From positions 248,001-312,000 of the forward strand of contig NZ_CP099393.1 of NCBI RefSeq assembly GCF_023913515.1: DNA of 64,000 nt, written 5' to 3'. Numbering within the stretch: the stretch's first letter is position 1; each line of letters starts with the position of its first letter. A program made the translations under genes and the position numbers. This document shows positions 5,536 through 18,297 of the stretch, in pieces. The notes beneath the pieces were generated by a model that did no database searches, was not told the DNA's origin, and saw only the letters and a program-made list of their open reading frames with translations. The stretch comes from Natronococcus sp. CG52 (GTDB lineage Archaea; Halobacteriota; Halobacteria; Halobacteriales; Natrialbaceae).

Positions 5536-6683
5536 TGTCGGCGCCAGAAAGCGAACGCTTGTCTACCGAAGCTGCCGACCCGTTGGAGGACGACGTCAAA
5601 GCCTATCAACGATCAAACGGGGAGATCGGTGTCCGAAATCGCGTGCTCGTCGCGCCGTCAGTTATCTGCTCACACATCGTAGCAGATCGTATCGCTGAAG
5701 CTTCCGAGGGCGCCGTAAGCGCCCCGCACGACCATGGCTGTGCCCAGATCGGTGCGGACCACGAACAGACCGAGCGAACGTTGCTGAGCCTCGCACAAAA
5801 CCCGAACGTTGCGGGGACGACGGTGGTTGGTCTCGGCTGCGAGCACCTGCAGAGCGGCCCGTTTGCGGACCGTATCGGAGACAGCGGCGTCCCGGTCCGC
5901 GAAACAGCGATCCAAGACGCGGGAGGGACTGATGCCTGTCTCGAAGAGGGCATCGAGGCAACGACTGACCTCGTCTCGGCGGCGGAAACCGCCGATCGGA
6001 CTGACGCCGCGCTCGCAAATCTCACCGTCGGTATCGTGAGTTCGGATCTGGAGGAATCGACTCGAACGATCGCGGATCCATTGGTCGGCGAAGCTGTCGA
6101 CAGCCTACTAGAAGCTGGTGCGCGCGTTCTCGTCACGGGTACCGAACGACTGGTCTCCGATGCGGATGCCGCTGCTGGCCGCGCTGAGACCGACGAGGTT
6201 GGCGAGAAGATTCGCAAAGCAGTCGATCGATCGGCGGCACAGCCCGGAAATGTTCGAGGGATCGTCCATCGAGCCGCGGACCTGCCGTTCGAGTCCGTCG
6301 TCGGAGCTTGGGGAGCCGCATCCCCCGCAGAGTTCGTCTCGTACGGGGATCGGGCGTCCGTTGACGACGGACTTGTCGTCGTCGACTCGCCGTCGCGATT
6401 CGAGGAAGCCACAACAGCGCTCGCAGCAGCCGGCGCCTCGATCGTCGTTCACGTGACCGCTGAAGGGATCCCCACTGGACACCCGATCGTTCCCGTTCTC
6501 AAGGTAACGGGAGATGGCGTGACTGCCGATGCGCTCGCAGACGATATCGATGTCAATGCACAGTCGGCGTCTCCGGATGACTTGCTCGCAGAACTCCGCC
6601 GAATAGCCGACGGGCACCCGACAGCATCAGAACAGCACGGACTTACGAAGTTCGCGATAAATCGCGTCGGCCCTTCGATGTAA
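5535..6683 (+). CDS. UxaA-family dehydratase large subunit, paralogue 2 (divergent)
   Basis: 382 residues, homologous to paralogue 1 along its length (compare NPNVGAALVIDLG with NPNVAGTTVVGLG, and the shared PVLKVTG / PVIKVTG and KFAINRVGP / EFAINEIQP near the ends). It keeps the N-terminal-half motifs HDHGCAQ (65-71) and GLGCE (99-103). It lacks the C-terminal-half motifs: ECGGSD is replaced by IVSSDLE and the TTIEEKSLG stretch is missing. This is the mirror image of paralogue 1. It is therefore unlikely to act alone; a heteromer with paralogue 1 and the SAF subunit is the simplest reading. The start at 5535 overlaps the SAF stop; an upstream in-frame ATG at 5460 lies inside the SAF gene and is less likely. 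Confidence 0.83.
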   Translation: MSAPESERLSTEAADPLEDDVKAYQRSNGEIGVRNRVLVAPSVICSHIVADRIAEASEGAVSAPHDHGCAQIGADHEQTERTLLSLAQNPNVAGTTVVGLGCEHLQSGPFADRIGDSGVPVRETAIQDAGGTDACLEEGIEATTDLVSAAETADRTDAALANLTVGIVSSDLEESTRTIADPLVGEAVDSLLEAGARVLVTGTERLVSDADAAAGRAETDEVGEKIRKAVDRSAAQPGNVRGIVHRAADLPFESVVGAWGAASPAEFVSYGDRASVDDGLVVVDSPSRFEEATTALAAAGASIVVHVTAEGIPTGHPIVPVLKVTGDGVTADALADDIDVNAQSASPDDLLAELRRIADGHPTASEQHGLTKFAINRVGPSM

Positions 6684-12124: not shown

Positions 12125-12222
12125 CATAATAAGATAATTCTAGGAATAGGATACATACGTCCAAACGGTACCGTCTAGTTAGCGCAGTTTGAGGAACGAG
12201 CAAGTCGTGGAGTTAGTTTGGA

Positions 12223-12897
12223 ATGATGCTTGTAAACCTGCTCAGCAAGAGCTATGAGGCGGATTTAGAAGAACCTTGGGAGAAAGAGTGTACGGCAACG
12301 CCCGTCAGGGTGTTCGCCGTCCGCCTCCACCAGACTAGTTGTTCACCTCGAGAGGTACAAGCGATTCTCGCTGAATTAGGCGTTGAGCGGTCTCATGGAG
12401 CGGTCTAGAACTGGGTACATCGGCTGACTGACAGCGGACACAGCCCACCGACGGCGAAGCCGTCGCGGGTCGCCATCGATGAAACCGCTGTCAAGATCAA
12501 CGGTGACTGGTCTTGGGTATACGCTGCAATAGACCTAGACTCACGGCTAATTCTTGGTATCGCAGTGTTCGGACGGAAAGGCACCGATCCAGCCGCTGCG
12601 TTCCTGCATCGATTGACCTAGAAACACGATCTCGACGACACGGTGTTTCTCGTCGATGGCTACGGATATCTGACTACCAACTCCCGGTTAGAATTGAGCG
12701 GTCAGCTCGATTACGTCGAGAGAAACCTGATCGAAAAGTGATTTCATACTCTCAAGATGCGAGTTGATCGCTTCCATAACTCGTGGGTGGGCGGTCGGGC
12801 GAGTGTCAGAGAGTGACTTGAATAGTTCGTACACTACTACAATACACAACGACCACATCAGCCACTCAACGGACAGACACCAGCGGAGGTGCTGAAG
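12223..12897 (+). pseudogene. IS6-family transposase, five in-frame stops
   Basis: One frame reads a whole IS6-type transposase: the N-terminal helix-turn-helix (SPREVQAILAELGVERSHGAV), VAIDETAVKINGDWSWVYAA with the first catalytic Asp, FLVDGYGY with the second, and a C-terminal FHTLKMRVDRFHNSW block. Stops at 12406 (TAG), 12618 (TAG), 12739 (TGA), 12814 (TGA) and 12823 (TAG) replace residues expected to be Trp, Glu, Trp, Trp and Gln. There are no frameshifts. A left-end-like GGTACCGTCTAG lies at 12166-12177. The right end is lost against the Orc fragment that follows. Confidence 0.85.
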
Positions 12898-12905
12898 CAC
12901 ACGTC

Positions 12906-13247
12906 GAGCGCGGTCAACGGAAAGCAGAAGTTCAGCGCTTCCAAGAACTCGTTTCGGGCTCGACACCACACGTCAAATACCTCCTTCGTGCATTAGCGAA
13001 CCTCACCGAGAATCGCGAGGGCGACGCCTTCTCGACGCACGAAATCTACCAGGTATACCAGAGTATTGCAGATGCTGAGGGCAGTGATCCGCTGAACCAA
13101 GACCGTGTCTATCGACTTCTGAAAGAGCAGTCGTTTCTCGGCGTCATCGAATCACGACACACAGGTAGTGGACACAGCGAAGGGAGTTACCTAGAACACC
13201 GACTTATGCGCGGATCTGACGTCGTTTTGGCGGCTCTCTCGGATTGA
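12906..13247 (+). pseudogene. Orc1/Cdc6 C-terminal winged-helix fragment (copy 1)
   Basis: About 113 codons that begin without a start codon right after the IS6 relic. They encode the C-terminal part of an archaeal origin-recognition protein: STPHVKYLLRALANL, then FSTHEIYQVYQSIA, DRVYRLLKEQSFLGV, ending GSYLEHRLM..VVLAALSD. This is the winged-helix domain that contacts origin repeats; the AAA+ ATPase part is missing. The fragment is intact to its stop, so loss was by deletion or insertion at the 5' side. It points to a former plasmid-type replication locus. Confidence 0.85.
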
Positions 13248-15895: not shown

Positions 15896-15932
15896 ATGCT
15901 AACATCAACAGACTACTTTATTAGTTTTACTG

Positions 15933-15958
15933 ACCAGTTACACTGGCCAGTAATACTG
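15933..15958. promoter_or_regulatory. Two tandem 13-bp palindromes before parA (probable operator)
   Basis: CCAGTtacACTGG is followed directly by CCAGTaatACTGG, i.e. the same CCAGT-N3-ACTGG palindrome twice with no gap. It lies about 60-85 nt before the parA ATG, with a TATA-like TTTATGTATTAATA at about 15987-16000 between. A dimeric repressor binding cooperatively (autoregulation of the par operon) or a partition site would explain it. Confidence 0.6.
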
Positions 15959-16018
15959 GACAATATGACTGAATAATCTGCCGAGGATTTATGTATTAAT
16001 ACACAGATTATCGAGTGT

Positions 16019-16888
16019 ATGATTCCGTACACAGTGTGGTCGGAGGCCGGCGGCGTCGGTAAGACGACGCTCGCGGCGAACCTCGCTCGAGCGCACGCGA
16101 ATCGCGACCAGGACGTACTCGTGATCGACATGGATCCACAGGACGGCGGCCTAACGAATCACTTCGGACTCGACGACCGAAAGGCCGACGGCGAAGTCGA
16201 TAACCTCGTGCTCCACATGCTCAACCGCGGCCGAGGTCCGTTCGACGATCTCGTTCGCTCTAGTGAAGGCGTCGATTGCATCCCGAGCCACAATATGCTC
16301 GGGACGCTCGACGACCTACTCGGGAAAGCGAAGGAACTCGAGGAAGACACAAACCCGAACCCGGACTATGAGTACGAGAAGGAAAAGCAACTCCGACGTG
16401 TTCTCGTCGAAGCAGGCGTTCCCTCCGAGTACGACGTGTTGGTTATCGACCCGCCGGCTTCGGAGGGCCAGCACCTGTACAACGCTGTCTACGCAACATC
16501 GAACCTTCTCATTCCTTTCGAGCCGTCGCCAAAAGGCGAGCAAAGCGTCAATGGGCTTCGCGACGTCGTCGACGGGATCGAATCCGAACTCGGCGATATC
16601 GACGTCGGCGTCCTCGGCACTGTCCCAAACAAGGTTAAGGGGACGAACATCAACCAGAAATATCTCGACGCGCTTGAGGAGGAGGAACTCCCGATCGCGC
16701 CGGTATCGATCGGTGAGCGCGGATCGATGCTCGGTGACGCTTGGGACAATCAGGTTTCGGTCTACGAGCTCGACTCGAATGACGATTACCGAGATCTCCG
16801 CGACTACGAGCGATCGACACTCGAGAAGTTCGACGACCTTGCTGCATACATCACCAAACAGTTCGAACAGCCGGAGGTTCAAGCATGA
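16019..16888 (+). CDS. ParA-family ATPase
   Basis: 289 residues. The deviant Walker A region reads SEAGGVGKTT (8-17), with Ala in place of the signature first Lys of KGGxxKT, a form that occurs in haloarchaeal ParA-like proteins. The Walker B-like strand is VLVIDMDPQDGG, and VLVIDPPASEG supplies the later switch. There is no N-terminal helix-turn-helix, so repression must come from another protein. It would move plasmid or chromosome copies over the nucleoid by ATP-dependent DNA binding. The next gene overlaps by ATGA, forming a two-gene par operon behind the twin palindromes. Confidence 0.9.
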   Translation: MIPYTVWSEAGGVGKTTLAANLARAHANRDQDVLVIDMDPQDGGLTNHFGLDDRKADGEVDNLVLHMLNRGRGPFDDLVRSSEGVDCIPSHNMLGTLDDLLGKAKELEEDTNPNPDYEYEKEKQLRRVLVEAGVPSEYDVLVIDPPASEGQHLYNAVYATSNLLIPFEPSPKGEQSVNGLRDVVDGIESELGDIDVGVLGTVPNKVKGTNINQKYLDALEEEELPIAPVSIGERGSMLGDAWDNQVSVYELDSNDDYRDLRDYERSTLEKFDDLAAYITKQFEQPEVQA

Positions 16889-17283
16889 AATCTGGCGCGA
16901 CCGATCCGTTCGCGAACGACGACCAAGACAGCCAATCCGACGACCCTAATCAGACCGAAAACACAGGTAGTAATACCAGCCAGTCTGACTCGTCAGTACA
17001 ACCAGAGAACCAGCAACAGACGGCTGATTCGACTACTCAGATTGACCGTTCAGACTTACCTCGAATCCTCACGCGAGACACAGTCAAAGAGGACCGTGAT
17101 GCGGTCCACCAACTGTTCGTCTACTCCGACACCGCCGAGAGAGAGAAAGAGGCTCGTCGGGAACTTGAGGATCGACTCGGGGATGTGTACAAGCTCGATG
17201 CTCGCGAGGCGATCTATCGTGCCGGGATGGAGAACATCGATGACGCAGAAGAAATCCTCCGGGAGTGGGGTGCGGATATCTGA
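16885..17283 (+). CDS. ParA partner protein, candidate centromere-binding factor
   Basis: 132 residues, overlapping parA by ATGA. The first ~55 residues are low-complexity and rich in Asp, Ser, Gln and Asn (disordered). The rest is helical and charged (REKEARRELEDRLGDVYKLDAREAIYRAG..DDAEEILREWG). It shows no ParB or ribbon-helix-helix motif I can recognise. By position it should be the ParB-equivalent adaptor that stimulates the ATPase or binds the palindromes at 15.93 kb. That role is inference. Confidence 0.75.
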   Translation: MKSGATDPFANDDQDSQSDDPNQTENTGSNTSQSDSSVQPENQQQTADSTTQIDRSDLPRILTRDTVKEDRDAVHQLFVYSDTAEREKEARRELEDRLGDVYKLDAREAIYRAGMENIDDAEEILREWGADI

Positions 17284-17324
17284 TAAAACGATACTTCCCC
17301 GCAGAAAGTGACTTCCTCCCCACC

Positions 17325-17714
17325 CTACTCGCTCGCTTGCGCTCGCTCCTGGAGGGTAGGGCTTCCTGTTTCCACGACGCACTTTGCAGGAACCGACTGG
17401 GTCCCGTAGGGAGCGCAGTCTCCGCAGGCGTTGATTCGGGACAGCCCGCCCCTACTTGCTTCAGTCCGCGTACCAGGATGTTGTAGGCCGCGTTCCAATC
17501 GCGGTCCGCCGTGAATCCGCACGACGGACACGAGTGCTCGCGGACCCACAACGGTTTGTCCGTCTCGACACCACACGCCGCACACTCTTTGGTCGTCCCA
17601 GCCGGATCGACAGCGACGAAGTGCGTGCCTTCGCGTTCGCACTTGTATTCGAGCATCCGGAGGAACGTTCCCCACGCCGCTCCGGCACGATTGCGGCTGT
17701 TCGACGGGATTAGC
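17325..17714 (-). pseudogene. tnpB: TnpB (IS1341-type) C-terminal remnant, frameshifted
   Basis: The C-terminal quarter of an RNA-guided TnpB nuclease: RMLEYKCEREGTHF, the zinc knuckle pair CAAC..CPSC, and the RuvC-III Asp in ADRDWNAAYNIL. Close to ETALPTG the frame shifts by one base and continues in another frame as VVETGSPTLQERAQASE to the stop at 17325, the normal ending of this family. The N-terminal three quarters are missing; the break coincides with the start of the Orc fragment on the other strand. It cannot be active. Confidence 0.85.
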
Positions 17715-18020
17715 AACTATTCAAGACACGGTCAATTGGTTTTGTGGGCACTGACGATCTTAGAAGAGGAAGAGAAGACACCAGTTCGCACACGAGATAT
17801 TCGAGAACCATATGAAATTTTGTGCGACAGTGAGGGGAGCAATCCCGTCTCCGATCGAGCAGTACGTGAGTATCTTGCTGAGTTGGAAACACTCGGAATC
17901 ATATCATCAACACAGATTAACCGCGGCAAAGGGGGCGGAAAGTACAAAGAGCACGAATTGGACCAATCGATCTCGAGTGTCAAGGCTGGATTGAAGGAAC
18001 TTCTTGGAGCGACTCCCTGA
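17715..18020 (+). pseudogene. Orc1/Cdc6 C-terminal winged-helix fragment (copy 2)
   Basis: About 101 codons with no start of their own; the open frame only continues upstream through antisense TnpB sequence. They read SRHGQLVLWALTILEEEE, TRDIREPYEILC, VREYLAELETLGIISS, GGGKYKEHELDQ, the winged-helix end of an Orc1/Cdc6 initiator different from copy 1. The stop TGA is immediately followed by the first origin-type repeat at 18020. Initiator gene directly followed by its repeats is the standard haloarchaeal origin layout, so this is the truncated initiator of that origin. Confidence 0.83.
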
Positions 18021-18056
18021 CCCCACCAGTTCCGCTGTTAGCTCATCCAAAAAAGA

Positions 18057-18080
18057 GGGGTGGGTGCCGACACCCACCCC
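18057..18080. repeat. Perfect 10-bp-stem hairpin inside the origin-like region
   Basis: GGGGTGGGTG, loop CCGA, CACCCACCCC. The 3' arm overlaps the third origin-type repeat. It could be a terminator for the truncated Orc gene or a structural part of the origin. Confidence 0.6.
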
Positions 18081-18236
18081 ACTGCTTCCGCTGTTAACAG
18101 GGACAAGAGTGTCTGTACTTTCTCTTTGGACGCACTTTGTGGTTTAATACGTGTCCTATTTGTCTGATTAGCTAGAAAGGTTTTAAGCAAATGTGGAAAA
18201 ATGATCTCATTGTCTGTTCATCACCAAACAACAAAA

Positions 18237-18258
18237 CACCCTCCTCACATGGAGGGTG
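18237..18258. terminator. Hairpin CACCCTCC-N6-GGAGGGTG
   Basis: An 8-bp stem with a 6-nt loop (TCACAT) just before the right-hand origin repeat. There is no T-tract after it, so a terminator call is weak; it may belong to the origin structure. Confidence 0.35.
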
Positions 18259-18297
18259 GTATAGTCGTTCCTTCTCTAACAGCGGAACTGGTGGGGT

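Follow-up and report, generated by a model that had tools for sequence, protein, structure and literature searches.

A haloarchaeal Orc1/Cdc6-adjacent plasmid origin, probably disabled by recent loss of its initiator, with its partition genes retained

In the stretch of DNA analysed here (the window, 64,000 nucleotides, bases 248,001-312,000 of contig C3, which measures 378,493 bp in a genome of three contigs and 4.74 Mb), the end of an Orc1/Cdc6 gene is followed by inverted G-string boxes around an AT-rich core. Comparison with related loci suggests, with a probability of about 0.82, that this is a haloarchaeal plasmid origin of the orc/cdc6-adjacent kind, which has recently been disabled by the loss of its initiator while its partition genes were kept. 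This kind of origin is known; the window offers a clear and recent case of its being switched off, a snapshot of a haloarchaeal megaplasmid that is losing one origin yet keeping the partition genes belonging to it.

Origin boxes, the initiator remnant and the parent arrangement

Box 1 (ACCCCACCAGTTCCGCTGTTA, 18020-18040) and box 2 (ACCCCACTGCTTCCGCTGTTA, 18076-18096) lie on the plus strand in the same layout as in relatives, and box 3 (18277-18297, minus strand) is a perfect inverted copy of box 1. The original prediction described two perfect 21-bp inverted copies 255 bp apart; the copies are indeed perfect and inverted, but the pair extends over 22 bp (18020-18041 / 18276-18297), with 234 nt between the arms and 257 bp from start to start. 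These 22 bp form the longest inverted repeat of the region, whereas in 40 dinucleotide shuffles the longest one averaged 8.8 and never exceeded 14. Box 2 is the diverged third box that had been proposed, being 86% identical to box 1 in direct orientation, and the differences between the two are confined to positions that vary among relatives. The proposal that the boxes begin at the Orc stop codon is also borne out, as box 1 shares its first base with the end of the TGA (18018-18020). The window thus carries the inverted G-string boxes, at least two, that mark a haloarchaeal orc/cdc6-adjacent origin. No further box was found in the whole 378-kb replicon with up to 4 mismatches, and a genome-wide scan with 15 bp of the box and 2 mismatches gave 9 matches against 5 for the reversed pattern, which is near background; the genome has no other copy. 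An Rfam search of the window gave no match.

Between the boxes, as predicted, lies an AT-rich core (18130-18239), a probable unwinding element with 62-68% AT, compared with 40-46% at the boxes, in which TAAG and AAAA blocks are conserved in seven aligned origins. Just inside box 3, as part of a conserved block, there is a G-rich inverted repeat, CACCCTCC/GGAGGGTG (18237-18244 / 18251-18258), kept in all seven aligned origins, in three of which the stem sequence is altered and still pairs. Its position is comparable to that of the G-rich repeat of Haloarcula hispanica oriC1, which lies inside the boxes and enhances firing, the G-strings of the boxes themselves being essential there (PMC3936714). 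The 10-bp-stem hairpin that had been singled out does exist (18057-18066 / 18071-18080) and overlaps the G-string of box 2, but the conserved repeat is the G-rich one; among the seven aligned origins the hairpin occurs only in the window and in Natronoglomus, and it is probably incidental.

The initiator fragment (17703-18020, plus strand) comprises the final ~103 codons of an Orc1/Cdc6 gene, namely the winged helix alone. It matches Pfam Cdc6_C (PF09079, E 1e-22) and only positions 287-366 of TIGR02928, its DNA homology to intact orc genes starts at 17703, and no ATG start was found for it. At the amino acid level it is 92% identical to the Natronococcus occultus protein and 91% to that of N. 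jeotgali, both of which are full-length, so the claim of a winged-helix tail whose ATPase domain is gone is confirmed. Because the adjacent Orc is reduced to its winged helix, where a working origin of this type has a directly adjoining intact orc/cdc6 gene, the locus is considered a relict rather than a working member. That the missing AAA+ half has moved elsewhere was considered and rejected: no N-terminal fragment of the tail's subfamily is present on C3, and the sole N-terminal Orc fragment on contig C1 is 34% identical.

The parent architecture is preserved on N. occultus SP4 plasmid 2 (NC_019976) and on contig 102 of N. jeotgali DSM 18795, where a full-length Orc is accompanied by the matching box layout. 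The parent order is parA (minus strand), a single box and then orc (plus strand), behind which two boxes point one way and, beyond the core, one box points the other way; the box in front of orc and the divergent position of parA are both missing from the window. The likeness to the N. occultus plasmid thus consists of the Orc tail, the three-box layout and a homologous parA, whereas there the Orc is full-length, an extra box precedes orc and parA diverges from it. In the same way, the window shares inverted boxes, an AT-rich core, an adjoining orc/cdc6 and nearby mobile elements with the haloarchaeal orc/cdc6-adjacent origins that carry G-string boxes (Wu et al. 2012, PMC3528665), and differs from them in that its initiator is truncated to the winged helix. 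The haloarchaeal initiator-plus-box plan that was originally recognized is therefore the plan of the intact relatives.

The box consensus ACCCCACNNSTTCCGCTGTTA is nearly invariant in the alignment of seven origins. An exact scan for it over 257 Gb (257 billion bases) returned 38 stretches, 37 of them haloarchaeal, and in 33 of these 37 an Orc of the tail's subfamily adjoins the boxes (L111 being counted by the second Orc hit of its locus), usually with the nearest box within ~70 bp. In two of the other four, the contig breaks off near the box; the remaining two are a single box on a Halosimplex chromosome (L107) and a locus of Haloquadratum walsbyi J07HQW2 (L112). The latter, an orphan array, has three boxes at 5686-5890 and no adjoining Orc. 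A scan of viral contigs for the box found none. Boxes are accordingly not widespread away from orc genes, homologues of the Orc tail are accompanied by them, and the consensus is a sharp marker for the origins of one Orc subfamily across haloarchaea. The suggestion that the box type may be plasmid-specific holds for most occurrences, which are on plasmids, but not for the chromosome-size contigs of Halosimplex and Haloquadratum. These comparative data also refute the reading in which the boxes are unrelated repeats, such as mobile-element ends or terminators, that came to follow an orc fragment by chance: although mobile-element remnants do surround the site, the identical box layout behind intact orc genes in many genera makes such a coincidence close to inconceivable.

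Rearrangement of the locus and the age of the break

Upstream of the Orc tail, the C-terminal remnant of an IS200/IS605-type TnpB (17290-17702, minus strand; Pfam Cas12f1-like_TNB, E 4e-25; NCBIfam guided_TnpB) is cut where the tail begins, and its nearest resident relative shares no more than 85% identity with it. It is preceded by a ParA partition ATPase (16019-16888, plus strand), whose orientation towards the Orc tail is the reverse of that seen in relatives, and by a small protein of 132 amino acids (16885-17283, plus strand), whose start overlaps the end of parA. This protein is also conserved in N. jeotgali, again behind parA, and from this position a ParB-like partner role is inferred for it. 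Four ACTGRYCAGT-like repeats with 13-bp spacing precede parA (15929-15977), as do four to five in N. occultus and N. jeotgali, and are likely to be an operator or partition site; because these repeats persist, the partition module looks complete.

Window positions 15936-17281 align in inverted orientation with the parA-parB region of N. jeotgali (5692-4299), the Orc tail aligning directly from 17703, and the inverted parA alignment is found with N. occultus as well. C3 no longer contains the upstream box, nor about 320 codons of the orc gene. In the intact parent arrangement, the product of the adjacent gene would bind the G-string boxes around the AT-rich core and load the replicative helicase. 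A rearrangement would then have inverted the parAB block, set the TnpB remnant against orc codon ~322 and deleted the AAA+ domain together with the front box and the promoter, in an order of inversion, insertion and deletion that a single genome does not reveal. The disabling mechanism is visible in the structure of the locus, and the loss of activity would be its consequence: since the leftover winged helix alone cannot bind ATP or load a helicase, the site should not fire.

Comparable damage has been described in H. hispanica, where oriC4-cdc6G and oriC5-cdc6H are disrupted origins and a winged helix forms a separate gene, HAH_4250 (PMC4441112). In both cases the initiator was broken by genome rearrangement and the boxes remain; inactivity is experimental there, and the missing piece in H. 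hispanica is the promoter and gene start, or the winged helix, whereas in the window it is the AAA+ domain. The window itself holds two disabled initiators, since another truncated Orc tail, belonging to a different subfamily, lies 4.5 kb from the first (12900-13246, plus strand). This second tail adjoins the decayed remnant of an IS6-family transposase (12163-12897), and its intact relative (96%) on a plasmid of Natrinema sp. SYSU A 869 has ACCCCNNACACCGAGTGAA-type boxes upstream.

What speaks against a dead origin is that signs of decay are so far absent from both boxes and tail. Compared with N. occultus, the Orc tail has 11 nonsynonymous and 38 synonymous changes (dN/dS 0.05), and none of the 54 core box positions has changed, against differences at 40% of the neighbouring spacer. 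If changes are split evenly between the two branches, simple Poisson bounds allow constraint to have been absent for no more than about a tenth of the window's own branch in the case of the tail, and about a fifth in that of the boxes. The low dN/dS was rejected as proof of selection on the tail, as recent truncation explains it equally well. The data would fit either a recent break or a site that something still conserves, and if the element is dead, it must have died recently, within about the final tenth to fifth of the branch.

Winged-helix-plus-box remnants in other haloarchaea

Less expected is that winged-helix-plus-box remnants recur in haloarchaea, with no clear N-terminal-only counterpart. 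We searched 391 haloarchaeal genomes with two queries of 97 amino acids, one from the winged helix and one from the AAA+ domain; a longer N-terminal query could not reveal N-terminal-only fragments, since paralogues filled its list. The winged-helix query gave 77 matches in 75 genomes, of which about nine lie in short frames once contig ends are excluded. Eight have breakpoints at codons 159, 183, 231, 263, 263, 318, 336 and, in the window, ~322, and appear to be independent; the other is a decayed copy with a stop. Boxes are clearly kept in seven of the nine. The AAA+ query gave 47 subfamily members at 75% identity or above, every one of full length though two contain a single stop, and the first short frame appeared at 73%, in a genome where the gene is probably split between contigs; no clear N-terminal-only remnant was found in this matched search of the 391 genomes. 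No intact close Orc of the subfamily was found in the remnant-bearing genomes, the sole second match at threshold being a 44%-identical Orc in G390. On Halorubrum lacusprofundi pHLAC01 (NC_012030), an orc fragment of the same subfamily (253012-253806), likewise cut on its N-terminal side, abuts an ISH3-type transposase gene; it differs from the window in this element, in the nine boxes kept and in its greater length (codons 159-419). N-terminally truncated Orc genes of the subfamily, mostly with boxes, were noted at L174, L175, L176, L181, L182, L183 and L184, and at two further remnant loci of like kind, L089 and L095.

These remnants invite the reading that selection keeps the winged helix and its boxes in a regulatory or decoy role, such as titrating the Orc of related incoming plasmids (exclusion) or repressing the site. 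The recurrence with differing breakpoints, and the absence of N-terminal-only remnants apart from the one probable contig split, are in its favour, and so are the published findings that Cdc6E is titrated by ORB-rich DNA and that oriC2 plasmids are incompatible with an oriC2-carrying host (PMC3936714). On the Halorubrum halodurans branch (L109 compared with L090 and L100), the AAA+ remnant changed freely, with about 10.5 nonsynonymous to 15.5 synonymous changes, unlike the winged helix (1.5 to 10.5). This contrast hints at retained function there; these values come from three-point arithmetic on small counts in one lineage, at a mosaic locus. The DNA downstream of L109 appears nearly identical to that of H. 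ezzemoulense, which suggests recombination. However, the winged-helix frame is itself broken in L175, L184, L095 and L177, which fits plain decay, and the tail in the window is without an ATG start. For the window, a decoy or regulator maintained by selection is thus rated as quite improbable. That the remnants of this Orc subfamily form a retained functional class, as initiator-less origins that act as decoys for related plasmids or exclude them, is likewise improbable; if true, it would explain why the winged-helix and box side persists and the AAA+ side does not. Their recurrence nevertheless raises the question of decoy origins in a form that can be tested.

Other Orc proteins of the genome and the replicon

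It was originally proposed that the origin is either dead or served in trans; a dead origin is favoured, and service in trans is unlikely because the genome, with its 14-15 full Orc genes, contains no further Orc of the tail's subfamily. Among these full genes, the one most similar to the parent Orc (C1:2,540,537) reaches 40% identity. The likeliest protein to keep the origin in use by binding its boxes in trans would be the chromosomal Orc at C1:2,186,701-2,187,813, beside which boxes of the form ACCCC-N4-TTCCGCTGTAT come close to the ACCCC-N5-TTCCGCTGTTA of the window. As these boxes are similar and their spacer is one base shorter, weak cross-binding is possible. Continued use would also agree with the undecayed boxes and with the ability of Cdc6 proteins to act in trans in H. 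hispanica (PMC3936714), but this protein shares only 36% identity with the parent Orc, and the origins of H. hispanica are specific for, and depend on, their own co-located Cdc6 (PMC3936714). Likewise, no transformants were obtained with H. mediterranei oriC4 lacking cdc6H when the host carried a deletion of oriC4-cdc6H (PMC4595724), and a broken Cdc6 gene leaves an inactive origin in H. hispanica (PMC4441112). Published work on initiator specificity favours origin-specific Cdc6 proteins, and use of the window origin by another Orc of the cell seems a slight prospect.

With the window origin regarded as disabled, the 378-kb replicon would most likely be copied from C3:83.8-86.5 kb, where the intact Orc of C3 is flanked on either side by boxes of a different type, CACCCCTCTATCGATGTGT (C3:83769-86490). 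This is the probable working origin of the replicon. Its Orc is 28% identical to the parent Orc and its boxes are unrelated to those of the window, and a second ParA, 47% identical to the first, is encoded nearby (C3:88499-89305). The GC skew of C3 displayed no clear origin or terminus. On contig C1, the Orc genes at 16490-17971 and 3952782-3954263 have the same scores at a constant offset; for this reason the two ends of the contig are likely to overlap, which would make the chromosome a circle of about 3.936 Mb.
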